Shown: piece after piece, positions 8,844-28,251 of the stretch
Position numbering within the stretch: position 1 is the first letter of the stretch
Layout: every line of letters starts with the position of its first letter
NCBI GenBank assembly: GCA_021782135.1
Contig: JAJXVM010000004.1
Coordinates: forward strand, 1-33,044
DNA: 33,044 bases
Reading direction: 5' to 3'
DNA from: Myxococcales bacterium
Lineage (GTDB): Bacteria; Myxococcota; Myxococcia; Myxococcales; Anaeromyxobacteraceae
The notes under the pieces: generated by a model
Told to the model about the DNA's origin: nothing
The model's database searches: none
The model's input: the letters and a program-made list of their open reading frames with translations, nothing else
Program-made: the position numbers and the translations under genes

Positions 8844-9839
8844 ATGCTCCTCGAGACGCTCACTTCCCTGCTCGCCGCCGCGGCGCTGGCCGCGGCTCCG
8901 TACAACCCGGGGACCGCCGCCAAGGGGGTCTGGATCTACGACCTCTCGGACAGCAGCGGCCCCGTGCCGTCCACCTGGGCTTCGCTGGCCTACGACACGA
9001 AGCACCACGAGCTCTACGTCACCGACCGCTCCGACGGGTCGGTCGGGGTGTTCAACGACGCGGGCATGGAGGTCTACCGGTTCGGGGCCGACGAGGAGTT
9101 GGGCACGATCGTCGACGTGGCGCCGCTCGAGGAGGGCGACCTGGCGGTGCTGGCGAGCCAGAAGGGACGGCCGGTGCTGTGGCGCTGCAACTTCCGCGGG
9201 GAGCGGAAGGCCCGCATCTCCATGGACAAACTGCCGCCCGAGTTCGCGAACGGCTTCTTCCCCGATCGAGCGGTGGCGCGGGGGAAGCGGCTCTACCTGG
9301 CCGAGCGCGGGGCCATGAAGGTCGCGGTCCTCGGGCTGGACGGCGCCGTCGAGGAGACGCACGACTTCTTCCACCAGCTCGAGCTCGACAAGCTGAAGAG
9401 CGCGCGGGGCGGCATTCCCGCGATGCAGGCCTTCAACGTGGACGAGGCCGGCAACATCCTCTTCACCGTGGCTCCGATGTTCCGGGCCTTCATCATCAGC
9501 CCCTCGGGGTCGGTCACCTCGTTCGGCGAGCGGGGCGGCTCGCCGGGCAGGTTCAACGTCGTCGGCGGGATCACCCGCGACTCCTCGGGCCGGCTGATCA
9601 TCGGCGACGTGCTCCGGTGCGTGGTGATGGTCTTCACGCCGGACCTGGAGTTCCGGGGGGAGTTTGGGGGCCGCGGGTGGGGGCCGGGTGACCTGATCGC
9701 GCCCCTCGACGTCGCTTTCGGGAACGGGCTGGTCTTCGTCTCCCAGAGCGCACGGCGGGGCGTGAGCGTCTATCGCCTGACCGTCCAGGAGCCGACGGCG
9801 CCGCCCGCGGCCGCGCCCGCGCCGGCCGCGGCGCGCTGA
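8844..9839 (+). CDS. secreted NHL-repeat (beta-propeller) protein
   Basis: Signal peptide MLLETLTSLLAAAALAAAPYNPG; repeated blade-like motifs (LYVTDRSDGSVGVFND, GGITRDSSGRLIIGDVLRCVVMVFTPDLEFRGEFGGRGWGPGDLIAPLDVAFGNGLVFVSQ). Confidence 0.8.
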   Translation: MLLETLTSLLAAAALAAAPYNPGTAAKGVWIYDLSDSSGPVPSTWASLAYDTKHHELYVTDRSDGSVGVFNDAGMEVYRFGADEELGTIVDVAPLEEGDLAVLASQKGRPVLWRCNFRGERKARISMDKLPPEFANGFFPDRAVARGKRLYLAERGAMKVAVLGLDGAVEETHDFFHQLELDKLKSARGGIPAMQAFNVDEAGNILFTVAPMFRAFIISPSGSVTSFGERGGSPGRFNVVGGITRDSSGRLIIGDVLRCVVMVFTPDLEFRGEFGGRGWGPGDLIAPLDVAFGNGLVFVSQSARRGVSVYRLTVQEPTAPPAAAPAPAAAR

Positions 9840-10332: not shown

Positions 10333-11745
10333 ATGAAGGCGCTCAGATACGCAGTCGCCGTGGTCGCCTCGCTTGCCTTCGGCAATGCGTGGGCGTTCCA
10401 CGATGGCGGCGTCGCTTACTGCGATGGCTGCCACTCGATGCACAACTCGTCGGGCAACAAGTTCATGTCGGGCGGCCGGAACACCGGCCTCACCGGCTGG
10501 AACGCGCTCGGCGCGGCTTCCACCACCCAGTTCCAGGGCAACAAGTTCCTGCTCCAGGGCTCGGACGACAGCTCGACCTGCCTCAACTGCCACGCCGCCG
10601 CCGACAAGGCGCCCAGCGGCTACCACGTGATGACCTTCCCGGCCCCGGCGGCCGGCACGGCGCCGGTGGAGCGGACCCCGGGCGGCGACTTCGCCTGGCT
10701 GACGGTCTCCACCACCGCGACGGCCAGCTACGGCGCCCCCATCAGCAACAAGGGCGAGCGCCACGGCCACAACGTCGTCGCCCAGGACTACGGCCTGGTC
10801 GCCGACAGCACCCTGCTCACCGCTCCGGGCGGCCAGTATGACGCCACCAAGCTGAGCTGCGCCTCCTGCCACGACCCGCACAGCCGCGCCCGCGTGGTCG
10901 ACGCCAACGGGACGATCGCCTACCCGTCGCTCCCGAACGGCTCCACTCCCGGCAGCAACGTCCTGCCCATCGGCAGCTCCGGCTCCTACGGCGCCACCGC
11001 GAGCGGCAGCGAGGCCGTGGGCGTGTACCGCCTCCTCGGCGGCGCGAACTACTCGCAGATGTCCTACACCAACCCGCTGCCCTTCAACGCCAACCCGCCG
11101 ATCGCGGTGGCTCCGTCGACCTACAACCGGTCTGAGAGCGTGACCGAGACCCGCGTGGCCTACGGCCAGGGCATGTCCGAGTGGTGCTCCAACTGCCACC
11201 GCTCGATCCACAACGACAACACCAACACCTCCAACACCGCGCTCATCCACCCGGCCGGCAACGGCGCCAAGCTGACCGCCACCGCCAACGACCTGGCCGG
11301 CAACGCCAACGGCACCACCATCGCCGCCATCTACAATGCGTACGTCGCCTCGGGCAACCTGACCAACACCCAGGCCTCGTCCTACACCTCCCTCGTCCCG
11401 TACGAGGAGGGCACCAACGTGATCGCCACCCTGGCCGGCCACGCGGTGAACGATGGCTCGCAGAAGAGCGGCCCGCAGACCGGCAGCGAGAACGTGATGT
11501 GCCTCTCCTGCCACCGCGCGCACGCTTCCGGTTGGTCCAGCATGACCCGCTGGAACAACCAGGCCGAGTTCATCACCATCGGCGGCGCCTACCCCGGCAC
11601 CGACGCGACCGGCGAGGGCACCTACGGCCAGTACAACCTGGGCTACACCACGGTTCAGGTCACGGCGGCCCTCTACGATCGCCCGGCGACCAACTTTGCC
11701 TACGCGCAGCGGTCCCTCTGCAACAAGTGCCACGCCAAGGATTAA
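10333..11745 (+). CDS. omcS: hexaheme c-type cytochrome, OmcS-like (filament/nanowire-forming family)
   Basis: Signal peptide MKALRYAVAVVASLAFGNAWA; six CXXCH; from memory of Geobacter sulfurreducens OmcS, near-identical blocks: FHDGGVAYCDGCHSMHNS, VAPSTYNRSESVTETRVAYGQGMSEWCSNCHRSIHN, HPAGNGAKL, CLSCHRAHASGWSSMTRWN, C-terminal LCNKCHAKD. Confidence 0.93.
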   Translation: MKALRYAVAVVASLAFGNAWAFHDGGVAYCDGCHSMHNSSGNKFMSGGRNTGLTGWNALGAASTTQFQGNKFLLQGSDDSSTCLNCHAAADKAPSGYHVMTFPAPAAGTAPVERTPGGDFAWLTVSTTATASYGAPISNKGERHGHNVVAQDYGLVADSTLLTAPGGQYDATKLSCASCHDPHSRARVVDANGTIAYPSLPNGSTPGSNVLPIGSSGSYGATASGSEAVGVYRLLGGANYSQMSYTNPLPFNANPPIAVAPSTYNRSESVTETRVAYGQGMSEWCSNCHRSIHNDNTNTSNTALIHPAGNGAKLTATANDLAGNANGTTIAAIYNAYVASGNLTNTQASSYTSLVPYEEGTNVIATLAGHAVNDGSQKSGPQTGSENVMCLSCHRAHASGWSSMTRWNNQAEFITIGGAYPGTDATGEGTYGQYNLGYTTVQVTAALYDRPATNFAYAQRSLCNKCHAKD

Positions 11746-11834: not shown

Positions 11835-13244
11835 GTGAAACTCGCGCGCCTGTGGCTCCTCGCCTTTCTGCTGTCCGGCTGTGGTCTCCTCACTCCGCGC
11901 CCGAGCGGCCGTCCGCCGCTGACGGATCAGGGCGCGCTCTTCCTCTATCTCGAGCCCTGGCCCGACGGCGCCGGCCGGCTCTCCGTCACGCTCTCGTCGG
12001 TGACCGCGGTGCGCTCGGACGGCGTGCCGGTTCCGCTGGAGCTCGCCCTGACCGACCTCCCCGGCCCGGACGCGAAGCGCCAGCGGCTGCTCGCGTCGGC
12101 GCAGCTGCCGCCTGGCGCCTACCGCGGCCTGGAGGTCACGGCGGCCCGGGCCCGGGTGATCGGCGGCGAGGGCCCGGCGGACCTGCTGATCGGCAAGGAG
12201 CCGACCTCGCTGGAGGCGCCCTTCGAGATCGCCGCCGGCCAGGCCAAGGTGCTCACGCTGACGCTCCGGTACGAGGCCTCCCTCCCCGCGGGCGTGACCT
12301 TCGTCCCCCGGTTCCTGGTCGGGACCCCGCCGCGCCCGCCGCCCATCCTGTACGGCTTCTGCTCCAACACCAACGAGAACACCCTGACGCTCTTCGAGCG
12401 CCGCCAGCACGAGGTCTTCCGGGTGCTGGCCACCGGGCGGGCGCCCCGCGGGCTCGCCCTGGGGAGCCCCCCCAGCACGCGCCTCTTCGTCGCGGTGGAG
12501 CGCGAGGACGAGATCCAGCCGTTCGAGATCACCGGCGACCTGCCGCTCCCGCCGCTCAAGCTGGTCCCCGGGGACCGGCCCTGGGAGGTGGCGCTCTCGC
12601 CGGACGCCCGGACCCTGCTGGTGCTGAACAACGGCTCCAACTCGCTCGCCTTCCTCGACGCCGCGAGCGGCGCCGAGCGCGGGCGGGTCGCGGTGGGCAT
12701 CTCGCCGATCTCGCTCCTCGTCGATCGCTCCTGGCGCCGCGCCTACGTCCTCAACGACGTGTCCAGCAGCATCACGGTGGTCGACCTGGCCACCCGCAAG
12801 GTGTTCGGCTCGATCCCCACCGGCGCCGGACCGCTCCGGGCGCAGCTCAACCGCGCCGGGGACAAGCTGTACGTGATCGCCTCCGGCTCTCCGCAGCTGC
12901 AGGTCTTCTCGGTCCCGGCGTTCACCATGACCAGCCAGATCACCATCGGGCTGGGCGCCACGGCGCTGAAGGTCGATCCGCGCACCGACCTGGTCTACGT
13001 GGCCAAGCAGGGCGAGCACCGGGTCTACGTCTACGACTCCTTCTCGCTCATCCCCATCGACTCGATCGACCTGCCGGGAGACGCCAGCTGGTTCGCCATC
13101 GACGACACCGAGAACGCCCTTCTCGCGCTCATGCCCTCCCTGCGCGGGGTGGCGGCCGTGGATCTCGCCAGCCACCGGGTGCTGGGCGTGATCCCGGTGG
13201 GGGACGAGCCGTACGAGGTCACGGTCGCCGACGAGAGGTACTGA
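11835..13244 (+). CDS. lipoprotein: N-terminal DUF4382-like domain plus YVTN-type beta-propeller
   Basis: Lipobox LLSGC; repeated propeller motifs (AYVLNDVSSSITVVDLATRKVFGSIPTGAGPLRAQLNRAGDKLYVIA; DLVYVAKQGEHRVYVYDSFSL; GVAAVDLASHRVLGVIPVGDEPYEVTVAD). Confidence 0.8.
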   Translation: MKLARLWLLAFLLSGCGLLTPRPSGRPPLTDQGALFLYLEPWPDGAGRLSVTLSSVTAVRSDGVPVPLELALTDLPGPDAKRQRLLASAQLPPGAYRGLEVTAARARVIGGEGPADLLIGKEPTSLEAPFEIAAGQAKVLTLTLRYEASLPAGVTFVPRFLVGTPPRPPPILYGFCSNTNENTLTLFERRQHEVFRVLATGRAPRGLALGSPPSTRLFVAVEREDEIQPFEITGDLPLPPLKLVPGDRPWEVALSPDARTLLVLNNGSNSLAFLDAASGAERGRVAVGISPISLLVDRSWRRAYVLNDVSSSITVVDLATRKVFGSIPTGAGPLRAQLNRAGDKLYVIASGSPQLQVFSVPAFTMTSQITIGLGATALKVDPRTDLVYVAKQGEHRVYVYDSFSLIPIDSIDLPGDASWFAIDDTENALLALMPSLRGVAAVDLASHRVLGVIPVGDEPYEVTVADERY

Positions 13245-13251
13245 GAGGCTC

Positions 13252-15447
13252 GTGATTCACCGGCGCCCAGGTCCGCTCGTCGCGCTGGCGCTGGCTCTGG
13301 CGCCCTCCGCCGCGCTGGCCGACGGGATCTCGGCCTACCTGCAGCCCGAGTACGATCACGTGGACACGCGCAGCACCGACAGCACCGGCCGGACCACCCA
13401 GTCGTCCAGCGACGAGCTCCTCCAGCAGTACGTGCTCGGCCTGTCCCAGACGCTGGCGCCCCTGCTGCACTTCGACGCCAACGGGACCTTCAACGACCAG
13501 CGGGCCTGGACCACCCAGGATCAGGTGCCCTCCCGGTCCGACTCCTGGTCGGGCTCCGGCAGCGCGCGGCTCCACATCGGGCCCCCCGTGCTCGGCGGGG
13601 ATCTCAGCTACCAGCGCTCGGAGGACTCGACCGGGAGCTCCCTCAGCCCCGCCACCCTCCACGAGGTGAACGAAGCCTACAGCCTGCACCTCGGCTGGCA
13701 CCCGGCCGACATGCCCGACCTCGACGTGCTCGCGACGCGAGGGGACAACTACGACGTGGGCAAGCAGTACATGGACGTGGTCAGCGACGACGTGCTCACC
13801 ACCCTGACCTACAACGGCTGGAAGCAGCTGCGGGTCCAGTACAGCGTGGAGTACCAGAAGGTCGCCGACGAGCTGCACGCCTCGACCACCACCAGCCTCC
13901 TCAACGCCGGGCGGCTCAGCTACGCCGACAGCTTCGACGGCGGGCGCACCAGCGTGCAGGCCAACTACGACTTCATGAACCGGCTCGCGGACACCTCGAC
14001 CGCGGGGGTGGGGGGCATGGTGTCGACGCAGCAGCTCCCCGCGGCGGGGCTCTCGCTGGTGGACCAGCCGACGACCCTGCCGCAGACCGACACCCTCCAG
14101 CAGAACGGGCTGCTGGTGGACGGCAAGACCGACGTCTCCGCCGGCATCAACCTGGGCTGGTCGATCGGGCTCGCCGGCGACACCAACGCCCGCGAGCTCG
14201 GGGTCCAGTTCTCGGACCCGACCACCCAGCTCAACACCGTCTACGTCTACGTCTCGCAGACCTTGCCGCTCGACGTCTCGTCGGCCTTCACCTTCACCGC
14301 CTGGACCAGCGACGACAACGTCAACTGGACCTCGGTCCCGCTCGCCGCGGCGACGGTCTTCAACACCCTCCTGCGCCGCTTCGAGGTCACCCTCGCCAAG
14401 GTCCAGGCCCGGTACGTGAAGCTGATCACCTACCCCATCGCGCCCGCGGTCAGCACCGACCGCCGCTACTCCGACATCTTCGTGACCGAGCTGCAGACCT
14501 ACCTGGTGGTCCCGGCGGAGTCGGTCCGCGGGCGGAGCTCCCTCACCTCGCAGGACGTCTCGGTCGCCCTGCGCCGGCAGCTCTTCTCCGAGCCGCTGGT
14601 GGCCTACGACTTCGCGGCGAACGGCTCCTACAGCGCCGGGAACGCCTCCTACACCATCCAGAACGGGGTCAGCTTCGACAAGGCGCTCGAGTCCTGGCTG
14701 CGGCTCTCCTCCCGCTTCGCCCGGATGGACTCGGGGATCCGGAACGAGGCCGGGCCGTCGGAGCACAACGGCGCCTGGCAGTACTCGGCCTCGCTGGTGA
14801 GCCGCCCCCTGGACACGCTCACCCAGTCCTTCACCTACAACGGGCAGCTCGCGCAGGACGTGCACGGCTCCTCGGCGTTCAACGCGGTCACCTTCGTGAA
14901 CCGTGCCTCGCTGTACCGCGGGGTGGACTTCCTCGTGTCCGCCGGCTACACGCAGAACTACCTCTCGAGCGGGGCGGTCTCGAGCGGGCCGCAGGTCGTG
15001 GCCACCGCCTCGCTGACGCCGAACAAGGTGGTCACGCTCTCGTCCACCTACACCTACTCCGGCCTCCACCAGGTCGGCGGCGGGCTGCCGGAGAGCGAAC
15101 TGGACGACGAGCGGCTCGACGGCTCGGTCTCGATCACTCCGTTCCGCGCCCTCTTCCTGTCGGCCTCGGTGCAGCGGGTGATCAAGGGCGCGCGCCCGAC
15201 CACGCTCGCCAGCGCGAGCGCCTCGTTCACGCCGTTCCCCGACGGGGACCTGCTGCTCCGCTCCTCGTACACCGACTCCCTCGACACCTCGCTCGACGCC
15301 CGGACGCAGCTCGGCACCGCCGGGCTGCGCTGGACGATCTCCACCCACGCCTACGTCGACGTAAACTACACGCTGCTCGACGCGGCCGCCCCCGAAGGCA
15401 CGACGCAGACCAAGACCTTCACGGCCAGCCTGTCCGTGCAGCTCTGA
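13252..15447 (+). CDS. outer-membrane beta-barrel (porin-like) protein with internal discoidin (F5/8 type C)-like segment
   Basis: GTG start after GAGAGG; signal peptide; alternating-hydrophobicity strands with short polar turns, C-terminal YVDVNYTLLDAAAPEGTTQTKTFTASLSVQL; internal FTAWTSDDNVNWTSV...RRFEVTLAKVQARYVKLITYPI. Confidence 0.75.
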   Translation: MIHRRPGPLVALALALAPSAALADGISAYLQPEYDHVDTRSTDSTGRTTQSSSDELLQQYVLGLSQTLAPLLHFDANGTFNDQRAWTTQDQVPSRSDSWSGSGSARLHIGPPVLGGDLSYQRSEDSTGSSLSPATLHEVNEAYSLHLGWHPADMPDLDVLATRGDNYDVGKQYMDVVSDDVLTTLTYNGWKQLRVQYSVEYQKVADELHASTTTSLLNAGRLSYADSFDGGRTSVQANYDFMNRLADTSTAGVGGMVSTQQLPAAGLSLVDQPTTLPQTDTLQQNGLLVDGKTDVSAGINLGWSIGLAGDTNARELGVQFSDPTTQLNTVYVYVSQTLPLDVSSAFTFTAWTSDDNVNWTSVPLAAATVFNTLLRRFEVTLAKVQARYVKLITYPIAPAVSTDRRYSDIFVTELQTYLVVPAESVRGRSSLTSQDVSVALRRQLFSEPLVAYDFAANGSYSAGNASYTIQNGVSFDKALESWLRLSSRFARMDSGIRNEAGPSEHNGAWQYSASLVSRPLDTLTQSFTYNGQLAQDVHGSSAFNAVTFVNRASLYRGVDFLVSAGYTQNYLSSGAVSSGPQVVATASLTPNKVVTLSSTYTYSGLHQVGGGLPESELDDERLDGSVSITPFRALFLSASVQRVIKGARPTTLASASASFTPFPDGDLLLRSSYTDSLDTSLDARTQLGTAGLRWTISTHAYVDVNYTLLDAAAPEGTTQTKTFTASLSVQL

Positions 15448-15456
15448 AGAGGAACC

Positions 15457-16029
15457 ATGCGAGCTCGCCCGTCCCATCTCCTGGTCGTCGCGGCGCTGGC
15501 GCTCCTGGCCGGTTGCGCCGGCAGCGGCGGCAACTACCACGACCCCAACATGGACTTCGGCTCGGTGAAGACGGTCGCGGTGCTCCCGTTCACCAACCTG
15601 TCCCGCGACTCCGCCGGGGCCGAGCGGGTGCGCGACGTCTTCGTCAACATGCTGCTCGCCAGCGGGTCGATCTACGTCCTGCCGAACGGCGAGGTGGCGC
15701 GCGGCCTGAACCGCCTCGGCGTGCAGAACGCCGCCAACCCCAGCGTGGAGGAGCTGACGAAGCTGGGGAGCTTCCTTAAGTGCGACGCGATCATCGGGGG
15801 GGTGGTCAAGGAGTACGGCGAGGTCCACTCGGGCAACGCCGCCGCCAACGTGGTCTCGGCGAGCGTGCAGATGTTCGAGTCGGCGAGCGGCCGGGTGATC
15901 TGGTCGGCGTCGTCCACCAAGGGCGGCATCTCGCTCACGGACCGGATGTTCGGCGGGGGCGGGGTGCCGGCGAACGACGTGACGGAGTCCCTCGTCAATG
16001 ACCTGCTGGACCGGCTCTTCAAGCAGTAG
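15457..16029 (+). CDS. lipoprotein, GNA1162/CsgG-like family
   Basis: Lipobox LLAGC; KTVAVLPFTNLSRDSAGAERVRDVFVNMLLASGSIYVLPNGEVARGLNRLG...CDAIIGGVVKEYG...SVQMFESASGRVIWSASSTKGG. Confidence 0.8.
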   Translation: MRARPSHLLVVAALALLAGCAGSGGNYHDPNMDFGSVKTVAVLPFTNLSRDSAGAERVRDVFVNMLLASGSIYVLPNGEVARGLNRLGVQNAANPSVEELTKLGSFLKCDAIIGGVVKEYGEVHSGNAAANVVSASVQMFESASGRVIWSASSTKGGISLTDRMFGGGGVPANDVTESLVNDLLDRLFKQ

Positions 16030-17170
16030 CCGCGCCGGGCGGGCGGTCGCGCTCGTGCTGACGTCGCTGGTGGCGTGCGCCTCGGCGCGCCCGGCCGGCG
16101 CGCCCGCGGCGTCCGGCGGGGGCGCGAGGGCGTTCCGGGTGGCGGTGCTCCCGGCCGACAGCCTCTCGTCCGGGCCGGTGCCGCTGCGGGCGGTCACCAC
16201 GCAGGTGGAGCGCGCCATGGAGGCGGCCGGCCTGAAGGTGGTCGGCGGAGACGCCGTCGAGGCCTACCTCGAGAACCACCGGCTGCGCTTCACCGGCGGC
16301 GTGGACGGTCCGGCGGCGGCGGCGGCGCGCGGGGAGCTCGGAGTGGACGGGCTGCTCATCACCACCGTCGAGGAGCACGAGCTGGAGGGCCCGCCGCGGC
16401 TGGCGATCACCTTCCGGCTCGTCTCGGCGTCCGAGGACGCGCGCATCCTCTGGACCGACGGCTTCGGCCGCGCCGGCGACGACGCGCCCGGCCTGCTCGG
16501 GCTCGGGGTGGTGCGCGACTACCGCCGCCTCGAGGCGCGGGAGCTGGTCCGCATGGCCCGGTCCCTGACGCTGGCGCTCGACGGCCGTGGCCCGCGCGCG
16601 CCGCCCTGCCCCGCCGAAGGGCGCTTCGAGCCGAGCGTGCTCTACCGCTCCCCGGACTTCCAGCCCGCGGGCAGGTACTCGGTCGCGGTGCTCCCGTTCG
16701 TCAACGAGACGTCGCGGCGCCGGGCCGGCGACCTGCTGGCGCTCGAGCTGACTCGCCAGCTCGCCGGGATCGGGCGGCTGCGGGTGATCGAGCCCGGCGT
16801 CACCCGCGACCGGCTCATCCACTACCGGGTCATCATGGAGGGCGGGGTCTCCCTCGACACGGCCCGGGTGACGCTCGAGACGGTGGGCGCGGACCTGGTG
16901 ATCGCCGGGTACGTGCGCGAGCTGTCGGAGGGCGCCGATCCCTCGCTCGAGTACACCGCGCTCGCGCTCGACCGATCGGGAAAGATGGTCTGGCAGGCCA
17001 CCTCCCACGGCAACGGCTCGGCGGGAGTCTGGTTCTTCGACTGGTCCATGATCGGCTCGGCGAGCCAGCTCGCGTGCCGGTTGGCCCGGGGCTCGGCGGT
17101 GTCTCTCTTCGGAGAGGGCGACACCGGCGGGACGGAGGTGGCGCTGCCGGCGAAGGGGGGGAAGCAATGA
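15998..17170 (+). CDS. lipoprotein with two tandem CsgG/LpoB-like modules (start uncertain; a start downstream of 16029 is possible)
   Basis: Lipobox LVAC (VLTSLVACASARP); two halves each beginning with a VAVLP strand (FRVAVLPADSL..., YSVAVLPFVNETSRRRAGDLLALELTRQLAGIGRLRVIEPG...). ORF overlaps the upstream gene by 32 nt. Confidence 0.75.
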   Translation: MTCWTGSSSSSRAGRAVALVLTSLVACASARPAGAPAASGGGARAFRVAVLPADSLSSGPVPLRAVTTQVERAMEAAGLKVVGGDAVEAYLENHRLRFTGGVDGPAAAAARGELGVDGLLITTVEEHELEGPPRLAITFRLVSASEDARILWTDGFGRAGDDAPGLLGLGVVRDYRRLEARELVRMARSLTLALDGRGPRAPPCPAEGRFEPSVLYRSPDFQPAGRYSVAVLPFVNETSRRRAGDLLALELTRQLAGIGRLRVIEPGVTRDRLIHYRVIMEGGVSLDTARVTLETVGADLVIAGYVRELSEGADPSLEYTALALDRSGKMVWQATSHGNGSAGVWFFDWSMIGSASQLACRLARGSAVSLFGEGDTGGTEVALPAKGGKQ

Positions 17171-17372: not shown

Positions 17373-19118
17373 GTGAATCGACGGATCGCCGTGGCAACCG
17401 CCCTGCTCGGGCTCGCCGCTCCCGCGTTCGCCGCTCCGGCGGCCAGCTCCGCCCCGGCGGCTCCCGCGCCGAGGCCGGCGACGGCCTCCGCCGGGCAGGG
17501 CGACATGCGCGCCTTCCTGGTCCGCGACGGCCGCGAGGCGCAGGTGCCGCTCTTCTCGCCCGACGCGCTCACCCTGGCGGTGGCGCGGGTGGACGACGAG
17601 GAGATCACGCTCCAGCAGCTGACCGACGCGCTCCTCACCGCGCACCGCGCCGGCCACTCCGGCGAGACCAGCCAGCACGACTTCCGGCCGGTGCTCGACC
17701 GGCTCATCGACATGAAGCTCTGCGTCCTCGAGGCGCGCGAGATGGGGCTCGACGAGCTGCCCGAGGTGAAGCGGGCGATCCAGGACGAGGAGACGAGCCA
17801 GCTCCTGCTGCGCGTCCGCGCCGCGGCGGTGAAGGACGTGAAGGCCGACCCGGCGGAGGTGGAGCGCCTGTACCGGGACGCGGTCCGCGAGTACCTGATC
17901 CGCTCCCTCCTGTTCCGCGCCGAGGGCGACGCCAAGACCTTCCAGAAGGCGCTCGCGGCCGGCGGGGACTTCGAGGCGCTCGGGAAGAAGAGCATCGACG
18001 CCAAGAAGGCCGTCGGGAGCATGGCCCCCGGGTACGTCGGGCTCGGCGGCATGAAGCCCGAGGTGGCGAAGGCGGTGGCCGGCGCCGCCGCCAAGGCGGT
18101 CCGGCTGGTGAAGCTGCCCGACGGCTGGACGGTGGTGCAGGTGGCCGGCATCCGCTACCCCGAGAAGCCCGAGGAGCGCGCGCGCGCCCAGGAGAAGGCG
18201 CTCGAGGGGGCCAAGCAGCGCGTGGCCATCAGGTACTACGAGGTGCTCGCGAAGCAGCACGCGCACGTCGACAAGAAGCTGGTGAGGAAGCTCGACCTGG
18301 AGGCGAAGAGGCCGGGCCTGGCGGCGCTCCGCAAGGACCCCCGCCCGCTGGCCACCATCGACGGCGAGCCGCCGCTCACGGTGGCCGACCTGCTCCGAGG
18401 CATGGAGGGCAAGTTCTTCCACGGGCTCGAGGCGCCGGTGAAGGAGCACCGCGCCAACGCGGCCAAGGAGGAGGTGCTCCACGTCCTGCTGCGCAAGCGG
18501 CTGGTGCTGGCCGAGGCGCGCCGCCAGAAGATCGCCGAGAGCGTGGAGTTCCGGCGCTACATGGCCGAGTTCACCGACGCCACCCTCTTCAGCGCCTACG
18601 TCGAGCGCGCGGTCATGCCCGACGTGAAGGTGACCGACCAGGAGGGGCGCGCCTACTACGAGAAGCACAAGGCCGAGTTCGCCACCCCGGCCATGTACAA
18701 GCTCGAGAGCCTCACCTTCTCCAGCGCCGCCGACGCGCAGCGCGCCTACGACAAGCTCCGCGCCGGCACCGACTTCAAGTGGCTGCGGTCCAACGCCGGC
18801 GGGCAGGTGAAGGAGGATCTGCGCAAGGCGCAGCTCGACGACGCGGTGGTGAGCGCCGGCGCCATCCCGCCGGAGCTGGCGAACCAGCTCCAGGGCGCCA
18901 AGACGGGGGACTGCCGGCTGCAGGAGATCGACGGCCAGTTCTTCCTGATCCGGCTCGTGAGCGCCACCCCGGGGAGCCAGCAGCCCTACCAGGCGGCGCG
19001 GTCGGCCATCGGGAAGAAGCTCGTGATCGAGGACCTGAACAAGGCGCTCAAGGACTCGACGGCCAAGATCCGCATGGCGCACAAGGTCAGCGTCTACCTG
19101 ACCCGCATCGGCCACTAG
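17373..19118 (+). CDS. SurA/PpiC-type peptidyl-prolyl cis-trans isomerase, periplasmic
   Basis: GTG start with AGGAAG upstream, signal MNRRIAVATALLGLAAPAFA; SurA-like N domain (VARVDDEEITLQQLTDALL...VLDRLIDMKLCVLEAREMGLDELPEVKRAI) and parvulin-like region (VKVTDQEGRAYYEKHKAEFATPAMYKLESLTFSSAADAQRAYDKLRAGTDF). Confidence 0.85.
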   Translation: MNRRIAVATALLGLAAPAFAAPAASSAPAAPAPRPATASAGQGDMRAFLVRDGREAQVPLFSPDALTLAVARVDDEEITLQQLTDALLTAHRAGHSGETSQHDFRPVLDRLIDMKLCVLEAREMGLDELPEVKRAIQDEETSQLLLRVRAAAVKDVKADPAEVERLYRDAVREYLIRSLLFRAEGDAKTFQKALAAGGDFEALGKKSIDAKKAVGSMAPGYVGLGGMKPEVAKAVAGAAAKAVRLVKLPDGWTVVQVAGIRYPEKPEERARAQEKALEGAKQRVAIRYYEVLAKQHAHVDKKLVRKLDLEAKRPGLAALRKDPRPLATIDGEPPLTVADLLRGMEGKFFHGLEAPVKEHRANAAKEEVLHVLLRKRLVLAEARRQKIAESVEFRRYMAEFTDATLFSAYVERAVMPDVKVTDQEGRAYYEKHKAEFATPAMYKLESLTFSSAADAQRAYDKLRAGTDFKWLRSNAGGQVKEDLRKAQLDDAVVSAGAIPPELANQLQGAKTGDCRLQEIDGQFFLIRLVSATPGSQQPYQAARSAIGKKLVIEDLNKALKDSTAKIRMAHKVSVYLTRIGH

Positions 19119-19147: not shown

Positions 19148-21100
19148 GTGAACAAGCTCGAGAATCGGTGGGTGGTCCTCCTGGTGGGCGCGCTGGCGGC
19201 GGGGCTGGCGCTCTCGCCCGTCCGCGCCGGCGCGGCGGAGCGGAAGTTCAAGACCAAGGGCTGCGCGGACTGCCACCAGAAGGCGGTCGAGAAGTTCAAG
19301 GAGGCGAAGTTCGCCCACGCCGCGGTCAAGGACCAGAAGTGCGAGGCCTGCCACCTGCGCCACGGCACGGTGGGCAAGCTGCTGCTGAAGCAGCAGGGGA
19401 ACGCCCTCTGCTACTCCTGCCACAAGCGGGACGCGATCGGGATGGACAAGCCGGTGGTGCACAAGGTGCTCCGCAGCGGCTCCTGCACCCAGTGCCACGA
19501 TCCGCACGGCTCGCAGGCCCCGCACCTCCTCAAGGCGGAGGGCGCGGAGGCCTGCTTCGGCTGCCACGCCCGCGAGCCGTTCCAGCGCAAGACGGTCCAC
19601 GCCGTCCTGAAGAGCGGCTGCGCCTCCTGCCACGCCGCGCACGCCTCCTCGGTCCCGAACCTCCTCGTCGCCGATCAGGCGAAGCTCTGCGCCCAGTGCC
19701 ACGCCTCGAACGGCGCCTTCCAGAAGGCGCACGGCGGCTACCCGGTCACCACCTGCACCGGCTGCCACGACCCGCACTCGTCCGACGGTCCCAAGCTGCT
19801 CAAGCCGACCGTGCACAACCCGGTGGCCAGCCAGTCCTGCGACGCCTGCCACGTGCCGGCCGGCTCGCCCAAGCCGTTCGCGGTCCAGGCCACCGGCTTC
19901 AAGCTCTGCGAGACCTGCCACGACGCCAAGGACTTCTCCGGCAAGGTCCAGCACGCGCCGGTGAAGAAGGGCGAGTGCCTCTCCTGCCACGACCCGCACG
20001 CCTCCGCCACGCCCAAGCTGGCGCGCGCGGCCGGCGCGCAGCTCTGCGTGCGCTGCCACAAGCGCTTCGCCGACGCGCCCGCCGTGCCGCACAAGCCGAT
20101 GAGCTCGCCCGAGGGCTGCCGCTCCTGCCACCAGGTCCACGCCTCGGCGAACGCCAAGCTCCTCAAGCAGCCCGCCGACCAGATCTGCGGCTCCTGCCAC
20201 GCCAAGGTGAAGGAGGAGGCGGCCAAGAAGAAGGTGGTCCACCCGGCCTTCCTGGCCGGCGACTGCGGCTCCTGCCACGACCCCCACGGCGCCGCCACCC
20301 GCAACCTCTTCAAGGCCCGCGCCGACCAGGTCTGCTACTCGTGCCACCGCGACGAGGAGACGCGGTTCGTCAAGGTGCACACCCACCGGCCGGTGCAGGA
20401 CGGCAACTGCACCGCCTGCCACGACGGCCACGCCTCGGACAACCCCAAGCTGCTCAGGGCGACCGGGTCCAAGCTCTGCGAGGGCTGCCACTCGCAGCTG
20501 TTCAAGCCGCTCGGGGACGGCGAGGTGGCCCACAAGCCGTTCGCCGAGGGCAAGTGCCTCGACTGCCACGACCCGCACGGCTCGAACGCGCCGGGGATGG
20601 TCCGGACCGACCAGAAGTCGCTCTGCCTGGGCTGCCACACCGCCGCGGCGAAGCAGCTCGACGGCGCGAAGAGCATCCACCCCGCGTTCTCGCAGGGCGA
20701 GTGCTCCAAGTGCCACAACCCCCACCGGTCCAGCATGAAGAAGCTGCTGCTGGCCTCCCCGCCCGACCTCTGCTTCGCCTGCCACAAGGCCATGAAGGCC
20801 CGCATCGACGGGCTGAAGCAGCACGCGCCGGTCGGCGACTGCCTCACCTGCCACAGGCCGCACGCCTCGGACCAGCCGAAGCTGGCGGCGGAGGCGGGCT
20901 CGGCGCTCTGCCTGCAGTGCCACGACGGCGCGGAGAAGACCTTCGCCGCCGCCCACCTCGGCATCGACCCCAAGGTGATCCGCTGCGTGAGCTGCCACGA
21001 CCCCCACGCGTCCAAGGACCCGAAGTTCTTCAAGCCCAACCAGCACGCGCCCTTCGCCGGCGGCCAGTGCGACGCCTGCCACGCCGTGGCCGGGAAGTAG
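19148..21100 (+). CDS. 26-heme c-type cytochrome (secreted)
   Basis: GTG start (VNKLENRWVVLLVGALAAGLALSPVRAGAA signal); 26 CXXCH motifs counted, many as CxxCHDPH(A/G)S. Confidence 0.93.
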   Translation: MNKLENRWVVLLVGALAAGLALSPVRAGAAERKFKTKGCADCHQKAVEKFKEAKFAHAAVKDQKCEACHLRHGTVGKLLLKQQGNALCYSCHKRDAIGMDKPVVHKVLRSGSCTQCHDPHGSQAPHLLKAEGAEACFGCHAREPFQRKTVHAVLKSGCASCHAAHASSVPNLLVADQAKLCAQCHASNGAFQKAHGGYPVTTCTGCHDPHSSDGPKLLKPTVHNPVASQSCDACHVPAGSPKPFAVQATGFKLCETCHDAKDFSGKVQHAPVKKGECLSCHDPHASATPKLARAAGAQLCVRCHKRFADAPAVPHKPMSSPEGCRSCHQVHASANAKLLKQPADQICGSCHAKVKEEAAKKKVVHPAFLAGDCGSCHDPHGAATRNLFKARADQVCYSCHRDEETRFVKVHTHRPVQDGNCTACHDGHASDNPKLLRATGSKLCEGCHSQLFKPLGDGEVAHKPFAEGKCLDCHDPHGSNAPGMVRTDQKSLCLGCHTAAAKQLDGAKSIHPAFSQGECSKCHNPHRSSMKKLLLASPPDLCFACHKAMKARIDGLKQHAPVGDCLTCHRPHASDQPKLAAEAGSALCLQCHDGAEKTFAAAHLGIDPKVIRCVSCHDPHASKDPKFFKPNQHAPFAGGQCDACHAVAGK

Positions 21101-21112
21101 GAGGCGGACCTC

Positions 21113-22375
21113 ATGCGCTCGCGGATTCTCCTGGCCCTCCTCGCCGTCCTCCTCCTCCCCCCCGCCCGGGCGCTGGCCGCGCCCGACCCCTTCAAGCTCA
21201 AGCCCGGCGCCGACGGCAAGGTCTGCCTGGGCTGCCACTCGGGTGAGCTCGACCCGGTGCTCAAGAAGCCGTTCGTGCACACGCCGGTGAAGTCGCGGAA
21301 CTGCGTCGGCTGCCACAGCCCGCACGCCGCCAACCACGGCAAGATGCTCGCCGACGAGCCCGGCAAGATCTGCGCGAGCTGCCACGACGTGGTCCCGGCC
21401 AAGCCCAAGAGCACGCACGAGCCGGTGGAGAGCGGCTGCACCACCTGCCACGATCCCCACGCCTCGAACTTCAAGAACAACCTGGTGAAGGCGCCGCAGG
21501 ACCTGTGCGCGGGCTGCCACAAGCCGGTGCTGCAGACCGCGACCGACGCGAAGTTCAAGCACTACCCGGTGCAGCAGGACTGCACCACCTGCCACGACCC
21601 GCACGGCTCGGCCAGCTCCGCCTCGCTGCTCAAATCGGCGGTGCCGCAGCTCTGCGTCGGCTGCCACAAGATGAACCGGCCCAACCTGGTCGCCAAGCAC
21701 CAGGGCTACCCGGTGGCGACGGCGCGCTGCACCGCCTGCCACGACCCGCACGGCTCGAACGTGCGCGGCATGCTCTACGACCACGTGCACCCGCCGGTGG
21801 CCAAGGCGATGTGCGGCCAGTGCCACGAGCCGCCCGGCTCGCCCAAGGGCTTCCAGCCCAAGCTCGCCGGGGTGGCGCTCTGCAAGGGCTGCCACGCGCA
21901 GAAGGTCAACTCGATGCTCGACCGCAACCGGGTGCACTGGGCGGTGCTGGGCGGCGACTCCTGCCTCGGCTGCCACAGCCCCCACGCCGGCAAGGACAAG
22001 GGGATGGTGAAGGGCAACATGGTGACCGTCTGCGGCGCCTGCCACGCCGACACCATCAAGCGCCAGGCGCTCTCCGAGACCAAGCACAAGCCCATCTCCG
22101 ACGGGCAGTGCACCAAGTGCCACGATCCGCACGGCTCGAGCGCGCCGCTCCTGCTGGTGAAGCCGGACGCCATCGAGCTCTGCGGCACCTGCCACGACTG
22201 GCAGAAGCACTCCACCCACCCGCTGGGCCCGAGCCACAAGGACCCGCGCAACCAGAACCTGACGCTCAACTGCCTGAGCTGCCACCGCGCGCACGGGACC
22301 GAGTACAAGCACATGAACCCGTTCCCCACGACGACCGAGCTCTGCACCAAGTGCCACGCGAGCTTCCGGAGGTGA
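21113..22375 (+). CDS. 16-heme c-type cytochrome (secreted)
   Basis: Signal MRSRILLALLAVLLLPPARALA; 16 CXXCH motifs counted, CxxCHDPHGS repeats; ends CTKCHASFRR. Confidence 0.93.
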   Translation: MRSRILLALLAVLLLPPARALAAPDPFKLKPGADGKVCLGCHSGELDPVLKKPFVHTPVKSRNCVGCHSPHAANHGKMLADEPGKICASCHDVVPAKPKSTHEPVESGCTTCHDPHASNFKNNLVKAPQDLCAGCHKPVLQTATDAKFKHYPVQQDCTTCHDPHGSASSASLLKSAVPQLCVGCHKMNRPNLVAKHQGYPVATARCTACHDPHGSNVRGMLYDHVHPPVAKAMCGQCHEPPGSPKGFQPKLAGVALCKGCHAQKVNSMLDRNRVHWAVLGGDSCLGCHSPHAGKDKGMVKGNMVTVCGACHADTIKRQALSETKHKPISDGQCTKCHDPHGSSAPLLLVKPDAIELCGTCHDWQKHSTHPLGPSHKDPRNQNLTLNCLSCHRAHGTEYKHMNPFPTTTELCTKCHASFRR

Positions 22376-22379
22376 TGCC

Positions 22380-23267
22380 GTGTCCACGTCGATGAAGAGC
22401 GCCCTGGCGCTGCTCCTGCTCTGCGCCGCGCCCGCCGCGCGGGCCGACATCGCCCTCGTCTCCCGCGGGCCGGTGTACGCCGACGCCAAGGCCGTTCCGT
22501 TCCAGGCGCCCGAGGGGGTGGCCTGCAGCGACGGCGGCCTGGTGGTGGCCGACACCGGCAACGGCCGGCTGGTCCGGTTCGACTGGAAGGACGGGGTGGT
22601 GAGCGGCGGGACCGAGATCAAGCTCGCGCAGCTCACCTACCCGATCCGCCTCCAGCTCGACTCGAAGGGAGACCTCCTGGTGCTCGACCGCAGGGCGAAG
22701 CGCATCGCCCGGCTCGACCCCAAGGGCGCCTTCCAGGGGTGGGTGGATCCCAAGGGCGCCGCCAACGTGGTCCCGCTCGCCTTCAAGGTGGACGCCGCCG
22801 ACGCCCTCTACGTCCTCGACCAGACCTCGGGGTCGGTCCTGGTCCTCGACGCCTCCGGCGCCGTGACCCGCACCGTGCCGCTGCCGAAGCGGCCGGCGAT
22901 CTTCGTGGACCTGGCGGTGGACGGGGCCGGCACCATCTACGCCCTCGACGCCGCCGGCTCGGAGGTCTGGTCGGTGGAGAAGGCCGGCGCCGAGTTCAAG
23001 CCGCTCTCGAAGGGGCTGAAGGACGCGATGAGCTTCCCGTCCTACCTCACCACCGACGGCAAGGGCGCGCTCCTCGTCAGCGACCAGAACGGCAACGGCA
23101 TCGTGCTGCTCGGGATCGACGGCAGCTACCTCGGCCGCCGGCTCTCGATCGGCTGGAGCGAGGGCGCGGTCTACTACCCCGTCCAGCTCTGCCTCACGCC
23201 GTCCGGCGAGCTGGCGGTGGCCGACCGAGGCAACAATCGGATCGACCTCTTCACCGTGACCCGCTAG
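22380..23267 (+). CDS. secreted NHL-repeat beta-propeller protein
   Basis: GTG start 5 nt after the 16-heme gene; signal MSTSMKSALALLLLCAAPAARA; GVACSDGGLVVADTGNGRLVRFDW ... LCLTPSGELAVADRGNNRIDLFTVTR. Confidence 0.85.
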   Translation: MSTSMKSALALLLLCAAPAARADIALVSRGPVYADAKAVPFQAPEGVACSDGGLVVADTGNGRLVRFDWKDGVVSGGTEIKLAQLTYPIRLQLDSKGDLLVLDRRAKRIARLDPKGAFQGWVDPKGAANVVPLAFKVDAADALYVLDQTSGSVLVLDASGAVTRTVPLPKRPAIFVDLAVDGAGTIYALDAAGSEVWSVEKAGAEFKPLSKGLKDAMSFPSYLTTDGKGALLVSDQNGNGIVLLGIDGSYLGRRLSIGWSEGAVYYPVQLCLTPSGELAVADRGNNRIDLFTVTR

Positions 23268-26407: not shown

Positions 26408-27121
26408 TCAGTCCGGCTCGCCGCGATCGTCCCCGGCCGCGGCCTCGCGGGGGCGCTCCCCCGGCGCCGAGCCCGGCTCCGGGTTCGGTTCGCTCGCTCG
26501 CGCGCCGTGCGCCTCGTGGACCACGGCCTGCACGGTGGAGAGCGCCAGCCCGAGCGTGCGCGCGGCCTGGCGCTGGCTGCAGAGCCCCACCGCGAGCGCC
26601 CAGCGCAGGTGGGCCCGCTCCTCCTGCGAGAGGCGGCCGCGCACGCGCCGATGCCCGGGCTCCTGCCGGTGCGCGTTCAGGTCGGCCCACACCTCCTGCT
26701 CGGAGCCCCAGGCCAGGTTCTCCGCCCGGTTGTTGTCCAGATCGCCGTCGATGTGACGGACCTGGCAGGACTCGTCCCAGGGCATGCCGTGAAAGGCGGC
26801 GCAGATGACGCGGGCCAGCGCCAGCGCCATCCGGCGGCCGTCGAGCTCGATGACCACGGTCCGGGAGCGCTGCCGGCGCGCGCCGCCCACCGGGTGCCAC
26901 TCGACGTACTTCCAGCGGCCGAAGCCCTTGTGGCGCAGGCGGGAGTAGATCCGGCCGTCCTCCCCCGCCATGTAGTCGGGGTTCCGGACCATGGGCAAGG
27001 GGGCCAGCCTCACGCCGGCCGCGGTTCGAATCTCCACGCCGTCAACCTTTCCCCGTCCCTCACCCGCCGCGCCGCGGCGATTGCGAATTGCAATATGCAC
27101 ATGAAAGCCGAAGTCCGCCAC
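26408..27121 (-). CDS. HNH endonuclease-like protein with C-terminal HTH (start uncertain; GTG 27121 or a downstream codon)
   Basis: PDYMAGEDGRIYSRLRHKGFGRWKYVEW (NUMOD4-like), SCQVRHIDGDLDNNRAENLAWG (HNH_3-type), SQEERAHLRWALAVGLCSQRQAARTLGLALSTVQAVV (HTH). Confidence 0.8.
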   Translation of the reverse strand: MADFGFHVHIAIRNRRGAAGEGRGKVDGVEIRTAAGVRLAPLPMVRNPDYMAGEDGRIYSRLRHKGFGRWKYVEWHPVGGARRQRSRTVVIELDGRRMALALARVICAAFHGMPWDESCQVRHIDGDLDNNRAENLAWGSEQEVWADLNAHRQEPGHRRVRGRLSQEERAHLRWALAVGLCSQRQAARTLGLALSTVQAVVHEAHGARASEPNPEPGSAPGERPREAAAGDDRGEPD

Positions 27122-27281
27122 CCATTTGGTGGATGTGCATGCAGGTGCGACAATCCCCTCCCGGTGGGCGTTGGGGGCGGCGGATGCTCTCCTGTAGGGG
27201 CCGGCGGGCGGGCGGGCGCGCTCCCGCTTGCATTCAACGACCCGGCGATCGTCGAGGAGGCGTGATCGGGACGCTGGCGCG

Positions 27282-28031
27282 TCATGGTTGCCCGTCCGAT
27301 TCGCCCGACTCGACGGAATCCGGGCCGGACGCCCGCCATCTGGCGCCTGCGCTCGCCGCCGGCGCCGCTGGCAACCCCGCCGCCCGCTTCCGCAAGATCC
27401 CCTGCACCGTGGAGAGCGCCACCCCGAGCACCCGGGCCGCCTGCCGCTGGCTGCAGAGCCCGTTTCCCACCGCCCAGCGCAGGTGGGCCCGCTCGCCCGG
27501 GTTGAGCCGCCGCGCCCTCCGCGGCTCGCCCTCGGGGCCGGCGCGCAGATCGTGCCAGCACCCCCAGGCCAGGTTCTCGGCGCGGTGGTCGTCCTCGTTG
27601 CCGTCGAGGTGGACGACGCAGCTCTCCTCCTCGGGCGACGGCCCGTGAAAGGCGGCGCAGATGAGCCGCGCCAGCGCGACCGAGATCCGCTTGCCCTCGT
27701 GCTCGATGACCACGGTGCGGTTCCGCGGCCGGCGCCGGGAGGCGACCGGGTGCCAGTCCACGTACTTCCAGCGGCCGAAGCCCCGGTGGCGCAGGCGGGT
27801 GTAGATCCTCCCGTCGGCTCCCGCCATGTAGTCGGGGCTCGGGCTCATCGAGATGGGCCTCAGCTCGACGCCAGCCGGCGTCCGGACGACGACCTGGTTC
27901 TCCAAGCGCACCCCCGGGTCGGACGGAGGAAGGGATCGCGGCGAACCGGCTCGCGCCAACTTGGAGCGCCCCGCCGATCCCGCCGTCCGTGAACTCCGCC
28001 TCCCCCGCCGGACCGTCACCCGATTAGCCAA
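27282..28031 (-). CDS. HNH endonuclease-like protein with C-terminal HTH, paralog of the 26408-27121 gene
   Basis: PDYMAGADGRIYTRLRHRGFGRWKYVDWHPV, SCVVHLDGNEDDHRAENLAWG, LNPGERAHLRWAVGNGLCSQRQAARVLGVALSTVQGIL. Confidence 0.8.
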   Translation of the reverse strand: MANRVTVRRGRRSSRTAGSAGRSKLARAGSPRSLPPSDPGVRLENQVVVRTPAGVELRPISMSPSPDYMAGADGRIYTRLRHRGFGRWKYVDWHPVASRRRPRNRTVVIEHEGKRISVALARLICAAFHGPSPEEESCVVHLDGNEDDHRAENLAWGCWHDLRAGPEGEPRRARRLNPGERAHLRWAVGNGLCSQRQAARVLGVALSTVQGILRKRAAGLPAAPAASAGARWRASGPDSVESGESDGQP

Positions 28032-28251
28032 AGGCGTGCCAATCCCATCCTCCGGCGCCGCCGGTCGGCAGGGCGCTCGGGCGCAACCGATTTGTCATGT
28101 GAACACGCGGCGGGGCGCGTTGGAATGCCGTCCCGGGGCGTGCGCGATCCGGTCGCCGGAGCGCACACGATCCGACACCGTCGCATTGGGCAATTCACCC
28201 AATGTCGCGAGATGGCGCAAACTGCGACGCGGCGGCGCGCGACGCGCCGTT

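Follow-up and report, generated by a model that had tools for sequence, protein, structure and literature searches.

OscF and OscG homologues with PelC/GNA1162-type modules in an osc cluster of Anaeromyxobacteraceae, candidate partners of a predicted barrel in OmcS export

Two adjacent genes at positions 15,457–16,029 and 15,998–17,170 of the 33,044-nt stretch of Myxococcota DNA analysed here (the window) are, judging by their sequences and gene order, the oscF and oscG genes of an omcS-companion (osc) cluster. Both lie on the forward strand, with open reading frames overlapping by 32 bp, in a draft genome of 3.38 Mb and 73% GC. Their products, OscF (190 aa) and OscG (390 aa), are homologues of the published osc system rather than parts of a new one, and we consider it probable that these lipoproteins assemble on the periplasm-facing rim of the predicted barrel OscE and guide the cytochrome OmcS outwards.

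The primary paper on osc is reportedly that of Shen et al. 2025. In PMC13194489, roles are proposed for the operon in forming OmcS nanowires, with OscH folding, OscE, OscF and OscG secreting and OscD shaping them. Since secretion of OmcS nanowires by OscE, OscF and OscG of Geobacter is proposed there, the general export idea is already published, and the same proposal agrees with the original prediction of an export platform. In Geobacter sulfurreducens, the block GSU2500–2493 (OscD–K) lies downstream of GSU2501, and these eight genes are always located 3′ of an omcS-like gene in the surveyed Geobacter genomes (PMC12977616). The window, from a different phylum (Myxococcota, family Anaeromyxobacteraceae), shows this layout as well, with an OmcS-type cytochrome gene and behind it the matching eight genes in unchanged order, oscE, oscF and oscG among them; Geobacter carries omcS, omcT and oscC, whereas one OmcS-like gene is present in the window. 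Compared with the Geomonas copies, identity is about 31% for OscG of the window and about 24% for OscE. Homologues of OmcS had already been published for Anaeromyxobacter dehalogenans.

The gene heading the cluster (10,333–11,745, forward strand, as are all cluster genes given here) encodes a 470-aa precursor with six CxxCH motifs. Alignment to OmcS (6EF8) gave a phmmer E-value of 4.8e-105, with residues 22–470 (mature) aligning to 1–407, and by this measure the product is a full-length homologue of the six-heme nanowire cytochrome, so that the lipoproteins do stand beside a filament cytochrome, as had been predicted. Downstream follow OscD (11,835–13,244), a beta-propeller lipoprotein recognised by a Pfam YNCE propeller match (3.8e-13) and synteny; OscE (13,252–15,447; 731 aa), a predicted outer-membrane beta-barrel and candidate pore; OscF and OscG; OscH (17,373–19,118), a periplasmic PPIC-type prolyl isomerase (Rotamase_2, 1.5e-27); OscI (19,148–21,100), a cytochrome with 26 CxxCH motifs and 46–75% identity in relatives; OscJ (21,113–22,375), a 16-CxxCH cytochrome assigned by its motifs and relatives; and OscK (22,380–23,267), an NHL-type propeller assigned by sequence and relatives. 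The letters D to H were given from gene order. A second NHL-type propeller (8844–9839) adjoins the cluster and has a homologue at 23 of 25 loci. A scan for promoters and terminators gave a signal no better than chance. Elsewhere in the window, the minus strand at 26,408–28,094 holds two similar adjacent open reading frames with PDYMAGxDGRIYxRLRHxGFGRWKYV motifs, HNH/NUMOD-like by eye.

The order OmcS-D-E-F-G-H-I-J-K is kept in most of the 25 loci compared, which come from Myxococcota, Nitrospirota, Desulfobacterota and Geomonas and include named Nitrospirae, Desulfobulbaceae, Desulfobacterales and Geomonas records. Of 195 genomes from this phylum, 16 had both OscF and OmcS, 5 had one alone (2 + 3) and 174 had neither (Fisher p = 1e-18). 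Both lipoproteins are strictly co-conserved with OscE, OscH and the cytochromes.

Several loci depart from the single standard arrangement. One near-complete genome (G023, C202:10229-11185) has an OmcS-like gene, with neither OscF nor OscG detected. In some relatives the osc cluster is present in two complete copies (L062/L063 in G012, L073/L074 in G003 and L071/L072 in G004), lying ~28–45 kb apart in G012 and G003. A divergent osc-like cluster, L067 (G016:C37:4500-23500), contains OscE-like, OscF (36% identity) and OscG-like genes, two six-CxxCH cytochromes whose similarity to OmcS is weak (for one of them, E = 2.6e-6 across 70 aa) and a cytochrome with at least 23 hemes; its gene content is possibly that of the same exporter paired with another filament candidate.

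Lipoboxes are present in both proteins, ending in ALLAG before Cys20 in OscF and in SLVA before Cys27 in OscG, and in alignments 26/26 and 24/25 relatives, respectively, have a cysteine at this position. The residue following it is Ala, Gly, Ser or similar, never Asp. By the Lol rules such a residue fits outer-membrane sorting, and OscF and OscG are probably anchored in the outer membrane. OscF exceeds the Pfam threshold for the GNA1162-like family PF05643 (33.8 vs 25.9 bits) and falls under the cut-off for LpoB, PF13036 (13.3 vs 22.3 bits). OscG of the window on its own had no Pfam match, while its relatives match the GNA1162-like, LpoB and CsgG models weakly; an NCBIfam search with OscF and OscG returned no useful match. 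OscG comprises two modules (aa 45–195 and 222–375), the second of which was also retrieved by genome searches with OscF as query (E about 1e-9). Profile comparison with hhalign gave E-values of 1.5e-23 for OscF against the OscG C-module, 2.1e-8 for OscF against the N-module and 1.5e-12 for the two OscG modules against each other; with E-values from 2e-8 to 1e-23, the three modules are homologous well above chance. These results, together with the shared fold of the models described below, uphold the original prediction of two neighbouring lipoproteins with three modules of the CsgG/GNA1162/LpoB superfamily, the second protein being internally duplicated. In a Desulfobulbaceae metagenome-assembled genome, OscG (L034:9527-10975) carries an additional Y_Y_Y/PKD-like domain at its N-terminus.

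AlphaFold models, each built on six sequences only, contained one module in OscF (pLDDT 78.8) and two in OscG (pLDDT 63.8, a lower confidence), with an identical order of strands and helices in all three. Among solved structures, the OscF and OscG profiles match GNA1162 (4HRV) and PelC (9H80, 5T0Z, 5T10, 5T11), and LpoB weakly. In fold searches, PelC was the top match of OscF (Z 15.7, rmsd 2.5 Å over 142 residues), followed by FlgT, GNA1162, TolB-N, CsgG and LpoB. PelC was also nearest to the OscG C-module (Z 13.9, rmsd 2.8 Å over 133 aa), ranking first or joint first for both OscF and this module; for the OscG N-module, FlgT, TolB-N and others scored about equally. The closest solved relatives by sequence and fold are PelC and GNA1162, with CsgG, LpoB, FlgT and TolB-N more distant; the function of GNA1162 itself is unsettled. 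CsgG was considered as nearest relative and rejected: hhalign comparison of the OscF and OscG profiles with the single E. coli CsgG was not significant (E = 0.055–0.31), and CsgG ranks under PelC and GNA1162 in the fold search. The membrane-embedded Trp149 of PelC aligns with Ile158 of OscF, a position occupied by V, I, L or A across OscF relatives. In alignments, the second OscG module has a conserved aromatic loop, GxDGVxFFD, and the pattern V-[FWY]-[FLW]-[FY] falls near the place equivalent to Trp149; this loop may dip into the membrane.

OscE, encoded directly upstream, shows 37 alternating hydrophobic segments, compared with 24.5 ± 3.1 in shuffled controls. Outer-membrane barrels end in a terminal aromatic residue, and several OscE relatives have a C-terminal aromatic beta-signal. 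These signals, though weak, suggest that OscE is an outer-membrane barrel. An F5/8-C (discoidin)-like insert at aa 288–392 is weak and recurs in relatives; searches of OscE against PDB and Pfam gave weak F5/8-C matches in this insert only and no solved relative, and no sequence relation to PelB was seen at the sensitivity used.

The lipoproteins had also been predicted to form a CsgG-like pore themselves, and the structural comparison turns against this part. That OscF and/or OscG oligomerise into such an outer-membrane pore conducting the filament subunit is very improbable, even with a superfamily fold common to both (CsgG chains against the models, Z 9–11), weak CsgG Pfam matches in relatives, a lipoprotein nature shared with the curli channel, its extracellular fibre setting, and genes adjoining a filament gene. 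Over the shared fold, CsgG spans 198–203 residues and an OscF/OscG module 154–158, leaving CsgG a surplus of 44–49 (for OscF, ~198–202 vs 154–158 and a surplus of 44). CsgG has two membrane hairpins of ~20 residues each, and the surplus is the size of this pair; PelC has no such surplus. Where CsgG has a hairpin, the modelled OscF strands 111–125 and 128–141 are joined by a tight turn, and no counterparts of the transmembrane hairpins were found in the OscF/OscG models or alignments. Because CsgG-size insertions are absent, OscF and OscG are without what makes CsgG a pore. A lack of membrane-spanning segments had been named beforehand as refuting a pore, and it counts against the pore claim, not against that of an export platform. 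In addition, a conserved separate barrel candidate always adjoins, and no CsgE/CsgF-like gene was noticed in the osc cluster. OscF and OscG being built like PelC and not CsgG, the expected pore therefore shifts to OscE, which we propose as the better candidate.

Two further readings give the lipoproteins no part in a pore-bound ring. It is unlikely that they are LpoB-like monomeric periplasmic regulators or adaptors, activating or locating an envelope enzyme or opening peptidoglycan for the filament: the similar fold (OscF vs LpoB, Z 11.1), the sub-cut-off Pfam match of OscF and LpoB matches in many relatives would agree with this, but LpoB activates a penicillin-binding protein, neither such a protein nor a peptidoglycan enzyme was found among the identified cluster genes, PelC and GNA1162 fit better, and the strict co-conservation with OscE, OscH and the cytochromes speaks against it. 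Quite unlikely, too, is a role in anchoring or capping the filament base or docking the periplasmic 26-heme and 16-heme cytochromes to it, with translocation by another route such as type IV pilus or type II-like pistons. Pili have been proposed as cytochrome-secreting pistons in Geobacter (PMC10954620), and OscI and OscJ are encoded in the same cluster; against this stand the cluster's own barrel candidate and the secretion role proposed for OscE, OscF and OscG.

Assembly of OscF and OscG on the OscE rim, the reading we prefer, would take PelBC of Pel polysaccharide export as its template, in which PelC forms a 12-mer lipoprotein ring beneath the PelB barrel (PMC12141448). The three PelC/GNA1162-fold modules would sit at the periplasmic face of the outer membrane, OscF likely as a homo-oligomeric ring and OscG, with its two modules, as an adaptor or second tier, assembling on the barrel in PelB/PelC-like fashion. 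OscH would help to fold heme-loaded OmcS, OscF and OscG would dock it, and OmcS would then be guided through OscE to the growing filament. The likeness lies in a lipoprotein fold free of transmembrane hairpins and in a barrel gene belonging to the cluster; unlike PelBC, the osc locus has no Pel genes, its neighbours being cytochromes, propellers and a PPIase, it would presumably export a filament of heme protein, and two distinct lipoproteins provide three modules. Against this reading, the fold is shared by LpoB, TolB-N and LptE, none of which is an export ring, Trp149 of PelC is not kept in OscF, the OscG model has low confidence, and the signals for a barrel in OscE are weak.

The passage of cytochrome nanowires through the outer membrane is still described as speculative (PMC12307469). 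More tentatively, and with somewhat less than even confidence, OscE-OscF-OscG may be a PelBC-type exporter adapted to a heme-loaded cytochrome and seeding a conductive filament, with two PelC-fold lipoproteins in an asymmetric or two-tiered ring, and in the divergent L067 copy this exporter may serve a different family of six-heme cytochromes. Taking PelBC as a template gives a concrete, testable architecture, conserved in at least three phyla.
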